Source: a virus
DNA length: 34,149 nt
IMG/VR virus record: IMGVR_UViG_3300049825_000530
Location: 1-34,149 of that record
Reading direction: 5' to 3' (one strand)
In this document: in pieces, positions 1 to 34,094 of the stretch
Layout of the letters: each line of letters starts with the position of its first letter
Position numbering within the stretch: position 1 is the stretch's first letter
Program-made: the position numbers and the translations under genes
The notes under the pieces: generated by a model
What the model was told of the DNA's origin: nothing
The model's database searches: none
What the model saw: only the letters and a program-made list of their open reading frames with translations

Positions 1-254
1 CCAAACCGCGACAAACAAAAAGCGGACCACAATTGGTCATAGGTGACACGAATTTCGCTACCCCTCTTTTCAAGAAGCGAATTGATGCCGTTGACCATTT
101 CCGCAACCGTCTCGCCTTTAGGGACGCGATCAGGAGCGTTCAAAAGCAAACCTACGGACGTGCGGTTTTTACCCATCGCCAGAGACAGTTCGCTGTGCGA
201 AATGTTCAAAACTTCGAGCAATTTCTTGATGTCTTTGTCACATTGCGGTTGCAT
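1..254 (-). CDS. Cro-like small DNA-binding protein (partial, runs off left edge)
   Basis: An open frame begins at an ATG at 254 and reads leftward without a stop to base 1, giving at least 84 residues. The segment at about residues 7-40 (DKDIKKLLEVLNISHSELSL, then MGKNRTSVGLLL) resembles a helix-turn-helix of the XRE/Cro type: a first helix, an SHSEL turn and a recognition helix. It is divergent from the CI-like repressor gene, with about 67 bp between the two starts, which is the position of a Cro or early antirepressor in lambdoid switches. No strong Shine-Dalgarno sequence is visible. If the window is circular, the frame continues at base 34149 and is in phase with the primase start at 34094. 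Function is inferred from fold-like pattern and position; there is no diagnostic catalytic motif. Confidence 0.7.
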   Translation of the reverse strand, partial: MQPQCDKDIKKLLEVLNISHSELSLAMGKNRTSVGLLLNAPDRVPKGETVAEMVNGINSLLEKRGSEIRVTYDQLWSAFCLSRF

Positions 255-283
255 GGCTATGTGTTACGTCGAATTATCGTCAG

Positions 284-320
284 TGTCAAATGTTTTCTAT
301 CGTCACATTATAGTCACATT
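284..320. promoter_or_regulatory. Divergent early/maintenance promoter-operator of the lysogeny switch
   Basis: Between the Cro-like and repressor starts lie two direct copies of GTCACATT (302-309 and 313-320), 11 bp apart or about one helical turn. A third copy lies at 237-244, inside the start of the Cro-like gene. A minus-strand TATAAT (312-307) and a plus-strand TATAGT (309-314) overlap between the two repeats, so one protein bound there could control both promoters. A minus-strand TTGACA lies at 289-284 but without a good -10 box at 17 bp. The repeats as repressor or Cro operators are inference. Confidence 0.5.
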
Positions 321-321
321 C

Positions 322-1107
322 ATGGCAAAGACTTACATGATTGACTATATGTTGACGGCAGAGGCTATTTCTCGACGTAAGCGCCTGGAGCAGGCCATTG
401 ACCGCGCTGGCCTAACGTCCCAGGGAGCCGCTGCGGAATTATGCGGTGTAAGCCAGCCCACGCTTAATGATGTTCTATCTGGGCGGCGGCCAGGACGTGA
501 ACTACTGAAGAAACTCGCTGAAAAAACCAACGTTTCCTACGAATGGCTACGCTTTGGCGACCCCGACAAAGCCCCAAGCTGGGCCTCAAGCACCAGGGTT
601 TCGGAAGGCGCAACCCCATACACAGCAGGCCACACCGTTGATATCGTCGGATGCGTCACCGCCGGAAACGGTGATGTCTCTGGCTATGACGATTTGATAG
701 AAACCGTGGAAATCCCCGCACATTGGAAGATTATCGTAGTCCACGGCATGTCGGCTTATCCAATATTTTACCCCAACCAATTGGCCTGGGTCGATATGCA
801 ACGCGCTGGCCGACCAGCGGAAATGCCGGAAAAACAGTACATTGACCTGCACGACAACGTCGTGGTGGTGCAAGGCGAGGCAAACGGCAAACGCTTCGGC
901 ATGCTCAAGCGCTTCAATTATCAGCCCGAAAACCCGCAAAAATTCAGCCTTTCCAGCTTGGATGGCGGGCGCTCGTCCCCTTATGTTTCCCCCGAGTCAG
1001 TGGACGTTGTTTTGCCTGTCGTCGGCAGTTGGTGGGAAGACCCCCGCCGCCCACGGAAAAAACGCTACCACGCTCGGTCGGTTATTGTAAAGCTAGTGGA
1101 GGAGTAA
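322..1107 (+). CDS. CI-like phage repressor with S24/LexA-type self-cleavage domain
   Basis: 261 residues from the ATG at 322. An XRE-type helix-turn-helix spans about residues 20-70, including GAAAELCGVSQPTLNDVLSG. The C-terminal half is a LexA/CI peptidase_S24-like domain: an Ala-Gly scissile pair in CVTAGNG (A114-G115), the serine nucleophile region HGMSAYP (S144), and a candidate general-base lysine in MLKRF (K196; K190 is an alternative). Such repressors bind operators to hold the lytic genes off and cleave themselves when RecA is activated. The start is uncertain: in-frame ATGs exist at 322, 337 and 349 and none has a clear ribosome site. I chose 322 because a TATAGT at 309-314 would put transcription initiation at or next to this ATG, giving a leaderless message as for lambda cI. 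It heads a four-gene plus-strand operon ending with the integrase. Confidence 0.88.
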   Translation: MAKTYMIDYMLTAEAISRRKRLEQAIDRAGLTSQGAAAELCGVSQPTLNDVLSGRRPGRELLKKLAEKTNVSYEWLRFGDPDKAPSWASSTRVSEGATPYTAGHTVDIVGCVTAGNGDVSGYDDLIETVEIPAHWKIIVVHGMSAYPIFYPNQLAWVDMQRAGRPAEMPEKQYIDLHDNVVVVQGEANGKRFGMLKRFNYQPENPQKFSLSSLDGGRSSPYVSPESVDVVLPVVGSWWEDPRRPRKKRYHARSVIVKLVEE

Positions 1108-1110
1108 CCA

Positions 1111-1605
1111 ATGCAGCATTTATTTTTATTGTTTTCGTTATTGTTTGTTTTTTCGTTTATTAGCGGCGAGGAAAAGGCTGACCCCGTCGCTGTTCCTGAC
1201 AGTAATATCACTGCTTCGGAATTTAAACCGGTCGTCATGCTTCCCAATGAATTAATTGGGCACTTTGGTTTTATGGAATGGACAAATGTTTCCGTGATTA
1301 CTCCTGAAAGCGCACAGTTTCTTCAAAATGGTGACAAAAGAATAATGAGGGCTGAAAAAAGCTATTCACACCAGGGTATTTACGAAAAAAGGGACGGTGA
1401 GGGATTAAAGATGGTGCTGGTTTCTCATGCCGACACCCGCACCTCTACACGCTCCTACGTTTGGAGGAAAATCGAATGTTTAACGGATGGCACCGTTAAA
1501 ATATATGAGAAAAGGGGCAATGACAGAATAGCCACCATTGATGATCTTGCAGCGATCAATGATGAATCATCACCACGTAAGGCTATTCCGCAGAAGGTGC
1601 GCTAA
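1111..1605 (+). CDS. Small secreted/periplasmic protein of unknown function in the lysogeny operon
   Basis: 164 residues. The N-terminus is a strongly hydrophobic export signal (residues 1-18, LFLLFSLLFVFSF) followed by ISGEEK, which resembles a signal-peptidase I site; no lipobox cysteine is present. The mature part is polar and has no domain I recognise. A strong ribosome site (GGAGGAG) sits inside the last codons of the repressor gene, and only three bases separate the two genes, so it should be expressed together with the repressor in the lysogen. Its base composition is more A+T-rich than the surrounding structural genes. Lysogeny-expressed envelope proteins of phages often alter the host surface or block superinfection; that role is inference from position and export signal only. 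Confidence 0.75.
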   Translation: MQHLFLLFSLLFVFSFISGEEKADPVAVPDSNITASEFKPVVMLPNELIGHFGFMEWTNVSVITPESAQFLQNGDKRIMRAEKSYSHQGIYEKRDGEGLKMVLVSHADTRTSTRSYVWRKIECLTDGTVKIYEKRGNDRIATIDDLAAINDESSPRKAIPQKVR

Positions 1606-1916
1606 TGAAGTCGCTAATAAATACCGCCATTAAAGCAAATGTCGTCTGCAAGAACTGCGAAACTATTTTCACTCACGATATTCCCAAGTCTAGAATTATC
1701 ATTGATCGCATCGGTGTTACGGTGATTTCTATACTGCTCATTATTGCTTCCTCCCAGAGTCACAACCGCTTAGACAGCTTCACTGCCTGGGGTGTGGTTA
1801 TTTGGTTTATTTGGTTATTAAAACGAAAACATAACGTCCCAAAATGTCCCGCTTGCAAGTCGCGCATCAGCGTGCCAGCCAATAGTCCGGTCGGTAAGCG
1901 CATCGTCGGCATCTAA
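1605..1916 (+). CDS. Small membrane protein with split CxxC...CxxC zinc ribbon
   Basis: 103 residues. Two cysteine pairs, C15-x-x-C18 and C81-x-x-C84, flank two hydrophobic segments at about residues 32-49 and 59-73. The topology is therefore a membrane hairpin with both cysteine pairs on the same (probably cytoplasmic) side, where they could form one zinc ribbon. The ATG overlaps the stop of the secreted-protein gene by one base (TAATG), and its own stop overlaps the integrase ATG the same way, so it is translationally coupled inside the repressor-integrase operon. I do not recognise the family. A superinfection-exclusion or membrane-stress-sensing role is possible but not shown by the sequence. 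Confidence 0.72.
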   Translation: MKSLINTAIKANVVCKNCETIFTHDIPKSRIIIDRIGVTVISILLIIASSQSHNRLDSFTAWGVVIWFIWLLKRKHNVPKCPACKSRISVPANSPVGKRIVGI

Positions 1917-3100
1917 TGGCCAACGCCTTCTTCCGCAAAGACCGGCAATGCTGGGTCGCCAATATTCGCGCCCTGTGGTCGCCTAGGGGAAAAAGGACTA
2001 TCATTTATATACCGGAACGGCGCATTGTCAGCGAAAGCACGGCAAAGGCCGACGCGAAAGCATTTGCCGACGAAGCCGAACGTTATTGCCGCACCCTTGA
2101 AGGCGCACATGAACCAGAAGACATCCAACATGCTCTTCGTCTTGGCGCGATAACCGACAAACAAGCCGCCGCATTGCGATCTGGCACGGTGGTGCCGGTT
2201 CGCGGGCTGGAAATGCAACGGCTCACGATTCGGGAAGCGGCGCAGGCGCACCCATCGAGCACCCGCGACAGTTTAGCGATGCAGGTTTATTATTTACGTA
2301 ACCTAGATGATTTCACCACCTACACGGGCGTCAAAAATTTGGCCGATGTCACCCTCGACAACGTGTTGCAATGGGTGTCCGAAATGAAGCGGCGAAAATG
2401 GAAATGGGACACCCGCCGCCATGCGCTCATTTATTTACGCCGCGCCGCCGTCATGGGCACCAGGCAGGGCCTACCCAATCAATTAGCAGGCATCCGACTG
2501 GACCACCAAGACCGCGTCCGCACCATAATTCGCGTGTGGCCACTGCCGCGCATCGTCCAGGCCATCAAAGCTGCCGATGATCCGCGCATTGCCGCCGCGT
2601 TGGTGCTCGGTGGCTGCCTTGGCCTGCGACCAACTGAAATTCAGCGCGTCGAGGTGGACGACCTGGTCGGTGACGTGCTGCACATCGGCCTGCGCGAAAG
2701 CAAAAACACCGCCAGCGTGCGCAGCCTACCGGTCCCCGCCCCCGTGTTGCGCTACCTGACCGCGTTGACCAACAAACGCAGCACGGGTGCGCTCCTATTA
2801 CCCCAGGGCGCCCGATCCGGCCCCACGCTAACCAGCAGCGGCCTGCATCAACTGATGGCCGACACGCTCACGACCCCAAAGATCGCCCCCAAAGATTTGC
2901 GCAAAAGCTTTGCCACCTGGGCAGCCACTCAAATACCAGCGGCGGACCTGGAGCGGTATCTTGGCCATCAGTCAGCGCTGCATGCCGCGGTGACGTCGCG
3001 CCACTATCTTGCCGCGCATTTTGCTGATCAGTTGCGACCGAGTGCGAAATTATTGTCCGAAACAATAGCCCCGTTGTTGGGTTATTCCCCTGCGTCTTGA
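1916..3100 (+). CDS. int: Tyrosine-family site-specific integrase
   Basis: 394 residues, a normal length for a phage tyrosine recombinase. The N-terminal ~100 residues are an arm-binding-like region, about 105-200 a core-binding domain, and about 205-385 the catalytic domain. Catalytic residues read R238 (GLRPTE), K263 (ESKNTAS), K326 and R329 (PKDLRKS), H351 (YLGHQS) and the nucleophile Y364 (SRHYL). The usual histidine of the HxxR box is lysine here, a tolerated family variant. It should recombine attP at 3932-3979 with the host tRNA-Arg gene. It is the last gene of the repressor operon, and its 3' end overlaps the convergent gene 3082-3384 by 19 bp. No excisionase could be identified with confidence in the window. 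Confidence 0.95.
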   Translation: MANAFFRKDRQCWVANIRALWSPRGKRTIIYIPERRIVSESTAKADAKAFADEAERYCRTLEGAHEPEDIQHALRLGAITDKQAAALRSGTVVPVRGLEMQRLTIREAAQAHPSSTRDSLAMQVYYLRNLDDFTTYTGVKNLADVTLDNVLQWVSEMKRRKWKWDTRRHALIYLRRAAVMGTRQGLPNQLAGIRLDHQDRVRTIIRVWPLPRIVQAIKAADDPRIAAALVLGGCLGLRPTEIQRVEVDDLVGDVLHIGLRESKNTASVRSLPVPAPVLRYLTALTNKRSTGALLLPQGARSGPTLTSSGLHQLMADTLTTPKIAPKDLRKSFATWAATQIPAADLERYLGHQSALHAAVTSRHYLAAHFADQLRPSAKLLSETIAPLLGYSPAS

Positions 3101-25803: not shown

Positions 25804-27888
25804 CTAACGATCCGACAAGAGCAATGGGCGTCCGTCGGGGGTGGTTGGGGTGATGGGTTTCGGTGAGGGTTTGGTTGGGGTTTCTGGTGGCGTGCCTGCG
25901 TTGGCGGCTAGCCATGGTTGATAGACGCGCCAGAAACGGGCGAGTGCGTCGGCAATGACGAGACAGGCTAATAAGTCGTCACGGCGGCGGACTTCGCGCC
26001 AGTACCAGCTATTGGTTTTTTCGTCGCGGGTCCATACGCGGCTACTGAGGTGCAGGCAAAGTATTGAGTTGGCTTTTTGTCCGCGTGGCAAAATCAGGCT
26101 TCCTGGTTCGCCTGGGGCGGACAGCATACCGGCATGGGCGGTTTGTTGTACTTGACTGCGGGTGATGAAGGCAATTTGGGCGATGCTGTCTTGCACTTGG
26201 CGAATGTCCATAATTCCGCGCAGGGATTGGGCGACCTCCACCGGCAAGACTGATTTGCCTTCGCGCATGCTGGTGCGGGCCATGCCTTTGGCCCGTTCGC
26301 CGCCAACGCCGATGCATGGCAACCATTGCGGATGTCCGACAATCCACGGCAATAATGAGCCAGGAATATAATTGACATCAATGCCGCCAATTTGGGGAAC
26401 CATGCGTTCTTCGCTGCCTTGGATTTGCCAGCCTTCGGCGCAAATAGATTCGATAATTCCAAGGACATGGTGATGGTCAGCCTCAGTCACGGCGCGCAGG
26501 GAGTTGCCGTTGGAATCGAGTGGGACGCATAATTCGTAGCCCCAATCAACGACGCAGCGACGGCCATCGGGGCCATGGCCCGAGACGAGCCAATAATGGC
26601 GGTTTTCTTGCACGTCTTGGCCGACGGTGAGGAGGTCTACCCAGGGCGGGACTTGGCGGGGTTCGTAGTTACTTTTTCCCGATAATTCACTGAGGCCGGT
26701 GGCGGTAATTTCCACCGCTGTGCGTTCGGTGTCGCCGTGATAAACGCGCACGCATTCGTCGCGGGTGAATTGGCGCAGTTGTTCGTGGTTGCCCTTCGTA
26801 TCGCGTGATACAATTGCCTGTCTGTGATTTTTCGCTAATTGGCCGAGGGTTTTGATTGGGCTTTCTAAACTACACCAACGAATGCCCTTGCGGCTGCTGC
26901 CCATGATGGCGCCGGTGACCTGGCCGTCGGGGGTCAGGGTTTGGCCGAGGCTAACATGGCGATGATCGCGCAGGGCCGTGCGGCGTTGTTCGTCGGTCAA
27001 TAAATGGGTGGCATCATGTACGCAGACCAAGCGAGCGGTGGCGCGGGCGGTGTCGTCGGTGTCGGGGTCGTAATGTAGGCGAGCGTAGGCGATGACTTTG
27101 CCTGCGGAATTTGGCGGCGGGTCGAAGTCGAACACCTGCCAGCCGCCGGACGGGTGGTTGGTTTCGATGCATAGCGGACAGCGAAAATAATTACGGGACC
27201 GCGTGCTGTCGTCGTAGGCTAAGACCGTGCTGTCGTTGTGGTCGTCGCTGATGGTGGATGTCCTGTTTTTTCGGGCGTGTTGGTCGTAGGATGCCGTACG
27301 GCCCCATGCTAAAGAAATAAATTTGGCGCGGATTTTTGAGGCTTCGTCAACGAACATAAAGCGACAGGTGAATGATGATTGCGCGGATTCGTTGCTGGCA
27401 CCGGCGCCGATTAAATAAACGGTGGCGCCGGTGTTTAATCGGAGGAATCGTGCGCCGCCGCCACGGGCACCGCGTCCCTCGGTTGGGAGAATCCAACCGT
27501 AGCCGCTGGCTTCGATGACTGGTTTTACTTTTTCTAACCAGACCTCTTCGGCTTTGTCTTCGTCGGGCAACATCAGGCCAGCGCTCTGTTTTAATTCGAT
27601 CAAGCAATATAAGAGACAGGCGATAACGCAGGCGAAGGTTTTCCCGTCTTGCACGGGGCCGAGTACGGTCAGTTCGTCAAAGCCACCATGCAAAAATGCC
27701 AATAATATTTCACGTTGCGCGGGGTGACTTTCGGGGTCGAAGGGTTCCCAGCGGTCCTGGCCGGTTTGTTGGTCACGCGCCCACACTTTCAACGTGCGGA
27801 CGAATTGCAGAATGGTACGCGGGGGCGAACCGATTTCCAAGACGTTGCACCAGGCGGTGGTTAGTTGTTCGGACCAGGTGGGGGTCAT
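25804..27888 (-). CDS. terL: Terminase large subunit (lambda gpA type)
   Basis: 694 residues, typical for gpA-like terminases (about 600-700). The ATPase half has the Walker A-like loop GPVQDGKT (residues 77-84), Walker B RFMFVDEAS (about 177-184) and a helical region between them. A zinc-ribbon-like CPLC motif follows near residue 235. The nuclease half begins around residue 420 with the strand LLTVGQDVQENRHYWL carrying the first acidic residue (D in GQDVQ) of the RNase H-like active site, then VVDWGYE. The protein cuts concatemeric DNA and drives it into the prohead through the portal. The ribosome site is weak. Its small subunit partner is separated from it by six short genes. Confidence 0.93.
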   Translation of the reverse strand: MTPTWSEQLTTAWCNVLEIGSPPRTILQFVRTLKVWARDQQTGQDRWEPFDPESHPAQREILLAFLHGGFDELTVLGPVQDGKTFACVIACLLYCLIELKQSAGLMLPDEDKAEEVWLEKVKPVIEASGYGWILPTEGRGARGGGARFLRLNTGATVYLIGAGASNESAQSSFTCRFMFVDEASKIRAKFISLAWGRTASYDQHARKNRTSTISDDHNDSTVLAYDDSTRSRNYFRCPLCIETNHPSGGWQVFDFDPPPNSAGKVIAYARLHYDPDTDDTARATARLVCVHDATHLLTDEQRRTALRDHRHVSLGQTLTPDGQVTGAIMGSSRKGIRWCSLESPIKTLGQLAKNHRQAIVSRDTKGNHEQLRQFTRDECVRVYHGDTERTAVEITATGLSELSGKSNYEPRQVPPWVDLLTVGQDVQENRHYWLVSGHGPDGRRCVVDWGYELCVPLDSNGNSLRAVTEADHHHVLGIIESICAEGWQIQGSEERMVPQIGGIDVNYIPGSLLPWIVGHPQWLPCIGVGGERAKGMARTSMREGKSVLPVEVAQSLRGIMDIRQVQDSIAQIAFITRSQVQQTAHAGMLSAPGEPGSLILPRGQKANSILCLHLSSRVWTRDEKTNSWYWREVRRRDDLLACLVIADALARFWRVYQPWLAANAGTPPETPTKPSPKPITPTTPDGRPLLLSDR

Positions 27889-29123: not shown

Positions 29124-29372
29124 TCATTCTATGTACTCGCCTTCAAATTCCTCTGATTCGCTAACTAATTCGCATTTAATGCCAAGTTCATCATAGCTAT
29201 ATCCTTCAAGGTTGGGGTCGCCAAGGTTCCTCGCAATATGCTTCACGTGATCTTCAATGGTTTGAAAGTTATACATGTAGGATCTAAATTCCTTCATCCA
29301 CTCATCTGTAAACTTGGTTTCGTCAATTGTCACCAAGACAGTTTGTATAACAGACACTTGATAGGTTTTCAT
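29124..29372 (-). CDS. Hypothetical acidic protein (82 aa)
   Basis: 82 residues, acidic (many Glu and Asp), starting MKTYQVSVIQTVLVTIDETK with a beta strand pair, a central helix (EWMKEFRSYMYNFQTIEDHV) and a very acidic end (ESEEFEGEYIE). Small acidic proteins of phages can mimic DNA or bind host enzymes, but there is no motif here that shows this. Start overlaps the small terminase stop (ATGA). Confidence 0.65.
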   Translation of the reverse strand: MKTYQVSVIQTVLVTIDETKFTDEWMKEFRSYMYNFQTIEDHVKHIARNLGDPNLEGYSYDELGIKCELVSESEEFEGEYIE

Positions 29373-30031
29373 TTAATCCCTTTGTTTTCGATGGCGTTCT
29401 GGATTAATTCCGGCGCTTTGGTGGTTAGGGTTTCGCGTAGGGTCGCGGTGGCTTGGGTGATGGCGTCGCGGATGCGGGGGCGGTATTCGGCGGGGACGTG
29501 GGTGATTATTTCTTTGAGGACGGCGGGGGCGAGGTCGGTGAGTCCGGCTAGGACTTCGTGGGCGAGTGAGGACACCAGGCCAACCACGGCGGTGGTGGGG
29601 ATTAATTCTTTTCTGAGGGCGGCTAATTCGATGGTGAGTTTTTCTGATTGTAGTATTCGGATGTCGCGTTGGGCGAGGGCGGCAAGTTGGGCGGGGCTGT
29701 GGGCGGTGCCGTCGGGGTTGGTGTCGGTTGGTTTTCCGTCTTCGGATAATTCCCGCGAAGCGGCGACATTCGGCGCGGGTTGGGCCAGGAATTTGTCTAG
29801 GTGCTGGTCCAGGGTTGGGGCGACGGCGGCTAATGGGGTGCCGTGATTGGCGATCCATTGGCGCAGGCTGGCCTCGCTGTCGAAAGGGGCATGACGGGCG
29901 GCCCATTTATAGAGTGTCCGTCGGCTGACTGGTTTGCCGTGAATGACGAAGCGCTGCGCTAGTTGTTCGACGCTGAGGGCCATGGTGTGGGCTAGTTCTT
30001 TGGGGCCTGGGGTCATTTGGTTATTTTTCAT
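29369..30031 (-). CDS. terS: Probable terminase small subunit (Nu1-like)
   Basis: 220 residues. The N-terminal third holds a helix-turn-helix or winged-helix type segment (LSVEQLAQRFVIHGKPVSRR, TLYKWAARHAPF) with a second helix SLRQWIANHG, matching the DNA-binding domain order of small terminases. A helical middle (SPAQLAALAQRDIRILQSEK, LTIELAALRKELIP) could be the oligomerisation part, and the helical C-terminus would contact the large subunit. It starts inside the end of the methyltransferase gene (ATGA). The large subunit gene lies 1.5 kb downstream past six short genes. The role is inferred from fold pattern and order. Confidence 0.75.
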   Translation of the reverse strand: MKNNQMTPGPKELAHTMALSVEQLAQRFVIHGKPVSRRTLYKWAARHAPFDSEASLRQWIANHGTPLAAVAPTLDQHLDKFLAQPAPNVAASRELSEDGKPTDTNPDGTAHSPAQLAALAQRDIRILQSEKLTIELAALRKELIPTTAVVGLVSSLAHEVLAGLTDLAPAVLKEIITHVPAEYRPRIRDAITQATATLRETLTTKAPELIQNAIENKGIK

Positions 30032-30929
30032 CGACCGGGCCCACCAAGAATTTTCCAGGCTGCCGCCGCGCAGAGCGGGACTTGTCCGTTGCCGAGCGCT
30101 TTAATTCGGTGTACCCGATGGGCCATCCCATCAACCACTCGACCCACACTGGGTTCAGTGTCCCACCAAGTACCTCTGGTAGACAGGGCGTGTGGCCTCG
30201 GTCCTTCGCTGATCGCTTGACTTTCCCGCTGCGATAGTCCCGTGCTAATGGTGTTGGTAGCTTCACTTGGGCCGACAATTTCGGTTCGCCTCGGCTGTTC
30301 CACTTCCCCGCTTTCCGTGCCACCGCATCGTCTGCAACTGGCGTCTGCCATACCCATGTGGCTAGACCGTCGCCGCTGGTCGCTGACGCTCCCTTGCGGT
30401 TGTAATTCCCGCAGACTGTCGGTGTTGGCACGCCATGCAAAACACCACCAGCGTTCGCGTTGATGGGGCGCACCCACGTCAGCAGCGGCCAGCACTGTCC
30501 ATCGCGCATCGTACCCGCGCGCGGCCAAGTCTCTGAGAACGTATCCAAGCCCTCGACCAACGATTGCTGGCGAGTTCTCCAGGAACAGGTAATTGGGTCG
30601 TACCACGTCAGCGATGCGGAGGACTTCGCGGTATAATCCGCTTCGCTCGCCATCGATCCCGCTCCCTCTGCCGGCGACGCTAATATCTTGGCAAGGGAAT
30701 CCTGCATGGATGCAATCCACTCTTCCGGTCCATTGGGATGGATCAAACAATTGGACGTCGCCTTCATGCACGTGCAGGCCAGGAAACCATCCGTCGGTTG
30801 ATCGTTGTCTGAGCGTGGCGCAGCAGTCGGGGTCCCATTCGACGGCGCAGATGGGTGTGTGTCCAAGAATGAGGTCTGCGAGTAGTCCGCCGCCTGCTCC
30901 TGCGAATAAGTGGAGGGTTTGCATGTCAT
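30021..30929 (-). CDS. Overprinted second protein in the +1 frame of the methyltransferase gene
   Basis: 302 residues from an ATG at 30929, five bases before the methyltransferase ATG, to a TAA at 30021, seven bases beyond its stop. It covers 100% of that gene in another frame of the same strand. It is not random-looking: it contains TFSETWPRAGTMRDGQCWPL (about residue 132), GVPTPTVCGNYNRKGASATS, LPTPLARDYRSGKVKRS and LNPVWVEWLMGWPIGYTELK (about 258-277). From memory these match a phage protein family seen beside or fused with C5 methyltransferases. No enzymatic core is known to me; it may help target recognition. The ribosome site is close (3-4 bases), so translation could be coupled or weak. 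Confidence 0.72.
   Translation of the reverse strand: MTCKPSTYSQEQAADYSQTSFLDTHPSAPSNGTPTAAPRSDNDQPTDGFLACTCMKATSNCLIHPNGPEEWIASMQDSLAKILASPAEGAGSMASEADYTAKSSASLTWYDPITCSWRTRQQSLVEGLDTFSETWPRAGTMRDGQCWPLLTWVRPINANAGGVLHGVPTPTVCGNYNRKGASATSGDGLATWVWQTPVADDAVARKAGKWNSRGEPKLSAQVKLPTPLARDYRSGKVKRSAKDRGHTPCLPEVLGGTLNPVWVEWLMGWPIGYTELKRSATDKSRSARRQPGKFLVGPVDEK
30028..30924 (-). CDS. C5 cytosine-specific DNA methyltransferase
   Basis: 298 residues from the ATG at 30924 (an in-frame GTG at 30936 is alternative; AGGGTGG fits the ATG best). It has the canonical order: SAM-binding motif I LFAGAGG (about residue 6), the acidic motif II VEWDP, motif IV HAGFPCQDISVAG with catalytic Cys at about residue 78, motif VI FLENSPA, motif VIII QRERWW and a motif X-like RIKALGNGQVP near the C-terminus. 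The enzyme methylates C5 of a cytosine in a specific short site; the target recognition region is short. In phages this protects against host restriction or alters host DNA. Its stop TGA overlaps the small terminase ATG. Another frame of similar length covers it (see the entry at 30021-30929). Confidence 0.93.
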   Translation of the reverse strand: MQTLHLFAGAGGGLLADLILGHTPICAVEWDPDCCATLRQRSTDGWFPGLHVHEGDVQLFDPSQWTGRVDCIHAGFPCQDISVAGRGSGIDGERSGLYREVLRIADVVRPNYLFLENSPAIVGRGLGYVLRDLAARGYDARWTVLAAADVGAPHQRERWWCFAWRANTDSLRELQPQGSVSDQRRRSSHMGMADASCRRCGGTESGEVEQPRRTEIVGPSEATNTISTGLSQRESQAISEGPRPHALSTRGTWWDTEPSVGRVVDGMAHRVHRIKALGNGQVPLCAAAAWKILGGPGR

Positions 30930-31025
30930 TTACCACCCTGGTTTCCCGTGGAACCGTGGACCGCGCTTGTTTTCATGGACCGTGCTTGGACCGAGTGGTG
31001 AGAAAAAACACGGTAAAAACAATGC

Positions 31026-31257
31026 ATGTCCACGATGTCCATGATGTCCTTCATTAAATAGAGAGTAACAGTAGGGACATGTTGTGGTGCGTGTGTGCGT
31101 GGTGATGTGGCGGGGGTTGTGGTGTGTGCGTGGTGGTGCTGTGTGGTGGTTATGGGGCTATGACAAGTTGCGTGGACATCGTGGACATCGTGGACATGCC
31201 GCATATTTACCGCTGTTTGGTGTTTGGTTTTGGTCCACGATGTCCGTCGTGTCCGTG
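31026..31257. repeat. Three clusters of 9-bp-spaced repeats; candidate replication origin or terminase-binding site
   Basis: The core ATGTCC (or its complement GGACAT) recurs at exact 9-bp steps. Cluster A: ATGTCC at 31026, 31035 and 31044. Cluster B: GGACAT at 31174, 31183 and 31192 (inverted relative to A). Cluster C: GGTCC-type cores at 31231, 31240 and 31249 in the orientation of A, with one or two changes in the outer units. A single GGACAT is at 31075. Between primase-helicase and methyltransferase genes this is a likely iteron-type origin, as in phage P4, where the alpha primase-helicase binds repeats. A small-terminase (cosB-like) site is the alternative. Confidence 0.55.
31081..31160 (-). 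promoter_or_regulatory. G/T-only tract between repeat clusters, candidate Rho-utilisation or unwinding element
   Basis: About 80 bases of the plus strand consist almost wholly of G and T (GTGCGTGTGTGCGTGGTGAT and similar). The minus-strand RNA is C/A-rich and unstructured, as rut sites are. It directly follows the primase gene and contains no supported gene. A strand-biased element helping the neighbouring repeats to act as an origin is a second possibility. Confidence 0.35.
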
Positions 31258-31274
31258 ATCGGTAATGTTTTTGG

Positions 31275-34094
31275 TTATTGGGGCAGTGCGCCATCAGCCC
31301 CCCTGTTGGCGTTGCGCCATTCTTGGTCTTCGGCTTCGTCGGCGGCTTCGCGGCTTTGGGCGCTGGCGGCAAATAGGTCTTCGTTGGCGGTTGGGGTGGC
31401 GGCGACTTTTTCGGCGCGGGCTTTTAATTCTGCAGCGGATGCTTTTTGTTCGGCGTCTTCGGCGGCGGTGAGTGGTCGCAGGTAATAGCGTGGGCGTTTG
31501 GTTTTGTCGTCGCTCTTGTCGTCGGGTTTGGGGTCGTCGGTTTTTGGCGCGGCTGGGCGGTGGCCCTTTTCCCATCCGGCTTCACCTAAGCGACGCGCCA
31601 CCCATTGGTCGCCGCGCAAAATTCCGCCGACGGTGCGGGTGTAAAATTTGAATAGCACGGCTATTTCCGTGAGCGTGTAGCCACGTTTGGGGTCGTACAT
31701 CGGGACCACGAAGATGGGGGCTTCGCCATTCAGTCCGAATGGCTTGCCCTCTTCGCTAACGATTAGCTTTTGCCATTTTCGCTCATCGCACCAGGAGAGG
31801 AAATTATCGAAACTATCTTGCACGACGAGTTCGCGCTGGCGGTCGCGGACGACGTCTTCCACTGCGTCGAATGGTGCGGGTTCGTCTTCGTGGACGGCCT
31901 GCCAGGCCAGAAAAGAATCAGTGCCGTTGACGCCTTCGCGGTCGGTTCTGCCGTTGACTTTAATTTCATAGAATCGACGCATGCCGGTGGGGTCGTTGAT
32001 GACGTCGCGCACGGGGTTATTGGTGTCACCGATGAAGGCCATACGACGGACGACGGAATTGTGATGGTGTCCGCCAAGTTCGCGGTAACTTTTCTTTTTA
32101 CTGGTGAGGGTATTTTTTAGGGCTTGGACTTCGGCTTTATTGCCGCCGGACATTTCACCCCAAAAACCCACGGCGTAATCGCCCAATATTTCGGTCGAAC
32201 GGTCATCAGTCAGGGTGGCGGCATTAATGCCAATCATTAATTCAGCCCACGGCGTGCACAGCTTTTCGATAGCGGTTGATTTTCCGTCGCCTTGTTTGCC
32301 GACGAATATTGGCATTAAGTCCCATTGAACGCCGCGACCACTGTTTAATCGTTTGACTTGCCAGATCCAATGGCGCATCACCGCAAAGTCGGTGGGGTCG
32401 TCGCGGCCTGTGGTGGCTTTTAGCCAGCGGCGCAATTCGCAGTTGCCTGCATCGGTTGATGGTTTGCCAATTATTTTTGCGAGAATAGCGGCGCGGCGTT
32501 TGGCGCGGGCTTCCTCGGTGAGTGCTGCCAGGGTGATGTCCACCCGGTCACGTGGTAATGATTCAAAAAAACTAGCGTGCGTGAAATAGAAATGGTTGAC
32601 TAATTCGCGAGTTTTGATGGCGACTGATTGCCCTTCTTTTGTCAACCAGCCGTTGACGGCGTCGGGGTGCAGGTCGCGGCCTTGTAAATACCTTTGCAGT
32701 GATGCGACCAGGAAACGGTGGAATCCTTTGTCTTTTTCTTCGCCGCCCACCATTCCCTGCCCCGCAGGGGAGGTCAGCGCGATTTGTGCCGCTTTGATGC
32801 GGTCTTTGACGGTCTTGGCTTTCAATCCTAAATGGTTGGCTGATTGTTCTAAATATAAATCACGCAATTGGACGTCAGGCATTGGCAGTGCGACGGTAAT
32901 TAATTTATCCAAGGCGTGCAATTTGGCGACGTCATCGAGCTTTGCGACGTCGGGTGCTGTGGTGTTAAGTAAATACAGCCAGCCATCAACGGGGTTTTGT
33001 ATCGTTGATAAATACAAGTCGTTGTTGGTTTGGGTAATTTCGGACACATCTTTGCCGCCGGTCAGCATGGCAACCTGGACGTGTGCGCCCTGGGCTAAGG
33101 CAAGCGGTATGGTCTTTGCCGTTGCCCGTTGTCCGGCTTTGTCCCCGTCCAATACCAACACCAAGCGGCCAGTGGCGTCGATGGATTGGCACATGGCGGA
33201 CAGGTGCCGGTCGGTAATAGCCGTTCCCATGCAGCAAACGGCTTCGGTGATGCCAGCTTGGTGACTGGCCATCACGTCGGTTGGGCCCTCCATCACCAGC
33301 ATGCGGCTTGATTCGCGGGCGGCGATTCGGGCGCGGTGTAAATTCCAGACGGTAGCGCCCTTTTGATATAATGGCGTGTCCGTGTTGTTTACATATTTTC
33401 CGATACTGCGCGCTTTGCACTCTTCTGACGTGCGCAAAGTGCGACCGCTAAATGCAATTGGCTGTCCGAAACGGTCGCAAATGGGAAACGTGATACGTTC
33501 AAAAAAGAAATCATCCGTACGGCCCGAACGATCAACGGTCAGATTTGTTGCCAGTAACACCGCCGGATCGTGACCGGCTTTTAATGCTGCCTTTAATAAT
33601 TGACCACTTCCTGGTGCCCAGCCAACGCCGAACGCCGTCAGGGTTTCATCGGTCAATCCGCGACCATGCAAATATTCGAGCGCCAGACGTCCAGCCGGTG
33701 CGCGCAATTGTTCGGCGTAAAAATTCGCCGCGAACTTCACCGCTGAAAAAAGGTTTTCTTTTTCGCTGCGGGTCGGACCCTTCACCCCTTTGGTATCAAC
33801 CACCAAGGCAAAGCCAACGCGACGCGCCAAAAATTCCACAGCGTCGCGAAAGTCGCAATGCTCGCGGGCCATAATTAAATCAACGGCATCACCGTGAGCA
33901 CCGCAACCAAAGCAGTGATAATGCCCGTCATCGTAAACGGTGCAGGACGGCGTGCGCTCTTGGTGAATCGGGCAACAGCATGCCCAGTTGCCGCCTGCTT
34001 TTTTAATCGCGACGTACGACGCCATCAAATCGGGCAAATCTACTTTTGCCTTGAGTGCCTGCACCTGCGCGTCACCGTAAAAGCCAGCGGTCAT
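31275..34094 (-). CDS. DnaG-type primase fused to VirE/D5-like superfamily 3-type helicase
   Basis: 939 residues. Residues 10-75 hold a CHC2-type zinc finger (CPIH with C41/H44, then CFGCG with C61/C64). Residues about 110-250 form the primase core, and 262-350 a TOPRIM region with MEGPTD (E269) and the DGD pair in LVLDGDKAGQ (D316, D318). A helical linker follows, then an ATPase domain with Walker A GKQGDGKS (599-606) and a Walker B-like GFWGEMSG around 648, of the virulence-associated-E/D5 type. The C-terminal ~100 residues are charged and disordered-looking. One protein can thus prime and unwind, like the alpha protein of P4. GGTGAG precedes the ATG. The frame stays open upstream to the window edge. 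Confidence 0.93.
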   Translation of the reverse strand: MTAGFYGDAQVQALKAKVDLPDLMASYVAIKKAGGNWACCCPIHQERTPSCTVYDDGHYHCFGCGAHGDAVDLIMAREHCDFRDAVEFLARRVGFALVVDTKGVKGPTRSEKENLFSAVKFAANFYAEQLRAPAGRLALEYLHGRGLTDETLTAFGVGWAPGSGQLLKAALKAGHDPAVLLATNLTVDRSGRTDDFFFERITFPICDRFGQPIAFSGRTLRTSEECKARSIGKYVNNTDTPLYQKGATVWNLHRARIAARESSRMLVMEGPTDVMASHQAGITEAVCCMGTAITDRHLSAMCQSIDATGRLVLVLDGDKAGQRATAKTIPLALAQGAHVQVAMLTGGKDVSEITQTNNDLYLSTIQNPVDGWLYLLNTTAPDVAKLDDVAKLHALDKLITVALPMPDVQLRDLYLEQSANHLGLKAKTVKDRIKAAQIALTSPAGQGMVGGEEKDKGFHRFLVASLQRYLQGRDLHPDAVNGWLTKEGQSVAIKTRELVNHFYFTHASFFESLPRDRVDITLAALTEEARAKRRAAILAKIIGKPSTDAGNCELRRWLKATTGRDDPTDFAVMRHWIWQVKRLNSGRGVQWDLMPIFVGKQGDGKSTAIEKLCTPWAELMIGINAATLTDDRSTEILGDYAVGFWGEMSGGNKAEVQALKNTLTSKKKSYRELGGHHHNSVVRRMAFIGDTNNPVRDVINDPTGMRRFYEIKVNGRTDREGVNGTDSFLAWQAVHEDEPAPFDAVEDVVRDRQRELVVQDSFDNFLSWCDERKWQKLIVSEEGKPFGLNGEAPIFVVPMYDPKRGYTLTEIAVLFKFYTRTVGGILRGDQWVARRLGEAGWEKGHRPAAPKTDDPKPDDKSDDKTKRPRYYLRPLTAAEDAEQKASAAELKARAEKVAATPTANEDLFAASAQSREAADEAEDQEWRNANRGADGALPQ

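Follow-up and report, generated by a model that had tools for sequence, protein, structure and literature searches.

The Rep protein of SaPIs reads, through its C-terminal domain, iterons that lie directly downstream of its own gene, and the isolated C-terminal domain of Cch2 binds its own iterons, in an origin that has three direct repeats (PMC7581432). For PICIs, origins in which two iteron sets flank AT-rich DNA have been shown to work, and plasmid replication from a rep-ori segment required rep and was far weaker when ori was missing (PMC6092414). In the P4 record, type I repeats are annotated in crr, just past the alpha stop; they read TGTTCAC, two adjacent ones keep a 9-bp step, and counted from the alpha stop the order is one GTGAACA, two TGTTCAC, and two GTGAACA. 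For most environmental phages, the origin of replication has yet to be mapped.

Here, we analyzed a 34,149-nucleotide stretch of virus DNA (the window; IMG/VR record IMGVR_UViG_3300049825_000530, taken over its positions 1 to 34,149) in which repeats follow a primase-helicase gene. We conclude that these repeats are very probably the iterons of a phage replication origin, bound by the primase-helicase's own C-terminal domain, and that the main interest of this origin lies in what the comparison with relatives revealed about the co-variation of origin and initiator.

Nine Repeat Cores 3' of a Primase-Helicase Gene

The 338-bp gap between the primase-helicase stop and the methyltransferase gene contains nine GTCC cores, arranged as three triplets with the middle one inverted (Table 1), and all nine keep an exact 9-bp step. 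An earlier note, made from the letters of this DNA alone, had described this arrangement, and every one of the nine cores was confirmed in the sequence. Its repeat unit, ATGTCC, holds for seven of the nine, but triplet C is degenerate (GTCC starts at 31233, 31242, and 31251; two units without CAC), and even TGTCC is found in only eight. Triplet B reads CGTGGACAT three times on the + strand; from the primase stop onward, the window order is three GGACA, three TGTCC, and three GGACA. The note had also called the repeats far from random, and the statistics agree: the gap holds two identical 5-mer triplets at a 9-bp step, where 2000 dinucleotide shuffles gave 0.005 on average and never more than 1, and no 6-mer triplet at a 9-bp step other than A and B occurs anywhere in the 34 kb.

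Table 1. Positions of the repeats, flanking DNA, and genes in the window
Feature	Position	Strand	Description and basis
Iteron triplet A	31026-31052	+	ATGTCCACG ATGTCCATG ATGTCCTTC; 223-249 bp past primase stop; sequence, Tandem Repeats Finder
Iteron triplet B	31171-31197	-	ATGTCCACG three times, perfect 9-bp steps; 78-104 bp past primase stop; Tandem Repeats Finder
Iteron triplet C, degenerate	31232-31258	+	TGGTCCACG ATGTCCGTC GTGTCCGTG; 17-43 bp past primase stop
Single extra inverted core	31074-31080	-	GGGACAT; sequence
Inverted repeat, left arm (39 nt)	31011-31049	.	Takes in triplet A and flanking CGGTAAAAACAA
Inverted repeat, right arm (39 nt)	31174-31212	.	Takes in triplet B and flanking ATATTTACCG
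A+T-rich flank around triplet A	31000-31070	.	63% AT
G+T-rich stretch between triplets A and B (81 bp)	31080-31160	+	89% G+T
Primase-helicase gene (939 aa)	31275-34094	-	CHC2 zinc finger, DnaG/Toprim primase core, VapE-type SF3 helicase, C-terminal winged-helix-like domain; Pfam, PHROGs
Predicted winged helix (aa 807-874 of primase-helicase)	31473-31676	-	LTEIA helix, DQWVARRLGEAGW helix, wing ending KRPRYYL; alignment and AlphaFold model
C5 cytosine DNA methyltransferase gene	30028-30936	-	Other border of the intergenic region, context only; Pfam, PHROGs
TerS candidate, the sole one	29369-30031		Weak match: phrog_57 E 0.0055, phrog_141 E 0.047
Terminase large subunit	25804-27888		gpA family

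The two arms of the inverted repeat are 85% complementary, and the strand folds far better across the gap than shuffled versions do (DNA fold z -5.5). Opposed iteron sets are present, but the spacer between triplets A and B is 40% AT, and AT-rich DNA lies at triplet A instead, where we regard the flank as a candidate unwinding region. The G+T-rich stretch has a strong strand asymmetry. Just upstream of the methyltransferase start, at 30955-30991, we also observed three related words, GTGGACC, ATGGACC, and TTGGACC, which are possibly decayed iterons. A search against Rfam gave no match, and GC skew did not change sign there.

A VapE/D5-type SF3 initiator helicase is encoded directly upstream of the nine cores, which lie directly 3' of its gene, 17-249 bp past the stop; the repeats, this position, and the domain make-up of the protein can be seen directly in the window. 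Pfam assigned the helicase to VapE (E 2e-25), a PDB sequence search matched the protein to DnaG primases, and the helicase region matched 7pds (PriRep1 with dsDNA) both by profile (E 4e-97) and by predicted fold (E 9e-10). On the other side, the next gene encodes the methyltransferase and not, as the note had it, the small terminase subunit; the TerS candidate sits beyond it, ~1 kb from the repeats. With a repressor and an integrase at 43-3100, the source phage looks like an undescribed temperate lineage. Its TerL had no match by tblastn at 1e-5 against 50,697 named phage records, an IMG/VR search for relatives of the primase found no other locus, and a genome scan for relatives of the primase-helicase returned partial relatives only, none of them close.

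Triplets downstream of Related Helicase Genes

We gathered VapE helicases from IMG/VR, using the helicase of locus L054 as the query. A 9-bp triplet was found downstream of the stop in 26/26 distinct VapE loci more than 40% identical to L054, mostly 138-180 bp past the stop. Closer to the stop, 20-45 bp beyond it, many VapE relatives had opposite-strand copies with an 11-bp step. We then counted triplets with at least 7/8 identical positions within 350 bp downstream in a set of 55 loci made non-redundant at 70% identity. Near-perfect triplets followed 17 of the 55 genes, compared with 0/55 for upstream regions and 0.09% for shuffles, and the remaining 38 had no clear triplet at this strict threshold; below about 40% identity to L054, a clear triplet was often absent. 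The step was exactly 9 bp in 14 of the 17.

The letters are less constant than the layout. Iteron words in the VapE family include GTGGACA, CTGGACA, TGGACGG, GGGACA, AGGTTGGG, and TATTGCA, and since they drift between relatives, TGTCCAC could be ruled out as a word universal to the family. Opposed and unannotated repeats were likewise found after primase-helicase-type genes in Marinobacter phage PS3 (GGTCACCCC-type), Yersinia phage YeP5 (three copies of AGACAACCT), and Staphylococcus phage IPLA35 (TGTTGCATCA). More broadly, the GenBank records of VapE-helicase phages that we inspected (L413-L421, among them PS3, YeP5, IPLA35, Adelaide, and Jess A) contain clusters of repeats, without annotation, 3' of the primase-helicase gene.

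Iteron Letters and the Helicase Tail

We next compared iteron letters with helicase sequences in 32 helicases, non-redundant at 97%, that were split into GGAC and GTTGG iteron classes. With counts that ignore relatedness, one wing column (P/W/Q vs. R/H/Y) separated the classes with 0 errors in 32, and one helix column (T to R) did so with 1 error in 32; both columns fall within the C-terminal domain, where this helix precedes the wing. Pairs of relatives across the two classes differed mainly in the tail: helicase core and tail were 92.5% and 64% identical for L183 (TGGACA) and L139 (GGTTGG), 88.7% and 50.5% for L094 and L127, and 83.6% and 47.5% for L085 and L123. Iterons differed despite 92% identity of TerL in L094/L127 and 78% identity of TerS in L085/L123, where the TerL family is named from one member's gpA match and the TerS family from a Nu1-like N terminus and its position. 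Because such similar terminases accompany different iterons, the terminase is unlikely to be the iteron reader. Together, these comparisons are strong evidence, short of proof, that iteron letters track the helicase C-terminal domain. Comparison across relatives thus shows 9-bp triplets directly 3' of VapE-family helicase genes, with letters that appear to co-vary with that domain.

An AlphaFold model built on the helicase-tail alignment predicted a helix-helix-strand-wing-strand C terminus at moderate confidence (pLDDT 73.5), and its nearest folds were winged helices, as weak matches; the P4 origin-binding domain was absent among the matches listed by Foldseek and VIA-align. Profile comparison (hhalign) of the window tail with VapE tails gave no significant match. 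An earlier structure model disagrees with this second one on the recognition helix, its alignment having probably misplaced the C-terminal helix, and the exact recognition helix that the models would assign to the window protein is uncertain. In the window, the residue at the wing position is P (in KRPRYYL), together with the iteron word GTGGACA, and the residue at the co-varying helix position is E, not T.

The TGTCCAC Word in Other Phages

Three tandem copies of GTGGACANN occurred in 78 IMG/VR stretches, compared with 5 stretches (4 contigs) for three copies of the permuted control GTAGCGANN; because the control matched so few, we consider the triplet truly enriched. Some of the 78 were coding repeats (e.g., L030, L037, and L069) and were set aside. 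A VapE or DUF5906 helicase was encoded somewhere in about 30 of 46 records with the triplet. The largest group consisted of podovirus-like phages with a P22-type portal, whose arrays are next to the terminase, with a DUF5906 helicase 2-3 kb away. These arrays are sporadic, tracking neither helicase nor terminase, and are missing in many relatives with 70-90% identical helicases; for this reason, we make no origin claim for them. Relatives lacking the repeats had been named in advance as grounds for rejecting the origin reading: they were found in this one unrelated lineage, but not among helicases more than 40% identical to L054.

In four of the podovirus-like loci (L019 13279-13473, L044 3526-3711, L291, and L377), TGTCCACnn triplets with exact TTGTCCACA units stand beside TTTTAAG and a 13-bp palindrome, e.g., AAGTC-AGC-GACTT. 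Up to five such clusters, on alternating strands, precede TerS and are absent from many close relatives; they are possibly a mobile or lineage-specific element. Long arrays of TGTCCACGA were seen in L079 (2598-2700), L078 (1257-1290), and L045 (6905-7150). The L078 array, a possible partition site, lies just before a ParA-like AAA_31 gene, and those of L079 and L045 are at or inside the start of a homologous open frame. Although an LxxAGW-type tail motif is visible in VapE, DUF5906, DUF927, and AAA_25 helicases, the C-terminal domain that we expected them to have in common was not supported by profile comparison of the tails, which gave no significant match.

Alternative Readings of the Repeats

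A packaging site (cos/pac), in which the small terminase would read the repeats as it does cosB R sites, was the earlier note's second suggestion. Arrays do lie between helicase and terminase genes in several lineages, and the window has its weak TerS candidate nearby. However, the methyltransferase gene separates that candidate from the repeats, the P4 crr, which shares this design, serves replication, and the near-identical terminases described above go with different repeat words, the difference between those relatives lying in the helicase C-terminal domain. We therefore consider the suggestion very unlikely. The chance that the repeats are DnaA boxes, at which host DnaA would open an origin or be titrated, seems slimmer still. 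TGTCCAC is the inner part of an TTGTCCACA-type box; the DnaA-box 9-mer consensus is TTATNCACA / TTGTCCACA. The podovirus-like units read TTGTCCACA exactly, which is identical to the high-G+C DnaA-box consensus. The window units (ATGTCCACG), by contrast, are off the box at both end bases, none matches the consensus at both ends, and two units of triplet C have no CAC. Moreover, VapE relatives show drift to AGGTTGGG or TATTGCA at the corresponding site, which a conserved host protein would not follow.

Short tandem and inverted repeats also suit operators, and the long TGTCCACGA arrays by the ParA-like gene in L078 and its homologues bring to mind a parS-like partition site. That the window arrays bind a repressor or a ParB-like protein is nevertheless the faintest prospect of those considered: a promoter scan of the repeat region found no promoter-like site, the repeats lie 3' of the primase gene with no par gene recognised nearby, and the words of relatives co-vary with the helicase tail. 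An iteron origin beside a primase-helicase resembling the P4 alpha type, which the note had favored, is instead supported by position, strand order, core word, the triplets of VapE relatives, and the co-variation with the tail.

Discussion

Our analysis supports the view that the window site is an iteron origin of the P4-crr/SaPI type, a known type, in an otherwise unfamiliar temperate phage. How the protein would bind, load, and start replication in this phage can be inferred from the comparisons above. The primase-helicase (939 aa) would use its winged-helix-like C-terminal domain to bind TGTCCAC(nn) units, three per array and in opposed orientations, and thereby assemble opposed VapE-type SF3 helicase hexamers on duplex DNA beside A+T-rich DNA. 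The helicase would melt this neighboring DNA and then translocate, and the fused DnaG-type primase domain would make primers.

More novel than the origin itself is the apparent co-variation of origin and helicase C-terminal domain as an exchangeable cassette: the origin word seems to change in step with its reading domain, whereas the helicase core and the terminase are retained. A bolder reading, which we offer tentatively and think rather less likely than not to hold as a whole, is that this origin/winged-helix cassette has a readable code, in which P vs. R/H in the wing and T vs. R in the helix would specify TGGACA vs. GGTTGGG at 9-bp steps, and that TGTCCAC is a recurrent solution across VapE, DUF5906, DUF927, and RepA-like families, so that origins could be predicted from sequence. 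The 32 proteins support the cassette and its code; the cross-family half is not supported, because the tail profile comparison failed and the DUF5906 arrays are sporadic. The comparison nonetheless offers, for a self-loading initiator, a protein-DNA code that can be put to the test. It also provides a rule for VapE-type phages: opposed arrays with a 9-bp (sometimes 11-bp) step should be sought 20-250 bp past the helicase stop.

In PLE satellites attacked by a nuclease that cuts the origin, RepA/origin swapping has been reported (PMC8263062), and the apparent joint switch of origin word and reading domain resembles it. In its layout, the window site is like the P4 crr, where iterons also lie just past the primase-helicase stop with a 9-bp step and in the same strand order, and the core words, TGTTCAC in P4 and TGTCCAC in the window, are one base apart. 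P4, however, also has another ori at a distance and carries crr in two copies of 120 bp, whereas the window has a single site; the window further differs in its full triplets, in the C for T in the core, and in its CHC2/DnaG-VapE fusion protein. The SaPI Rep-ori and Gram-negative PICI pri-rep-ori systems pair an initiator helicase carrying a C-terminal origin-binding domain with two iteron sets and AT-rich DNA directly downstream (PMC7581432, PMC6092414), and the homology of the window helicase to PriRep1 of 7pds is a likeness to these systems. In contrast to SaPIs and PICIs, the window comes from a temperate phage, which encodes structural genes of its own, and not from a satellite, and its proposed origin has three triplets, a long G+T-rich spacer, and different iteron letters. 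Finally, the SCCmec Cch2 origin differs in its AAGTG word and polymerase-type primase partner but, like the window, has three short direct repeats downstream of the helicase, which in Cch2 are bound by the isolated C-terminal domain (PMC7581432).
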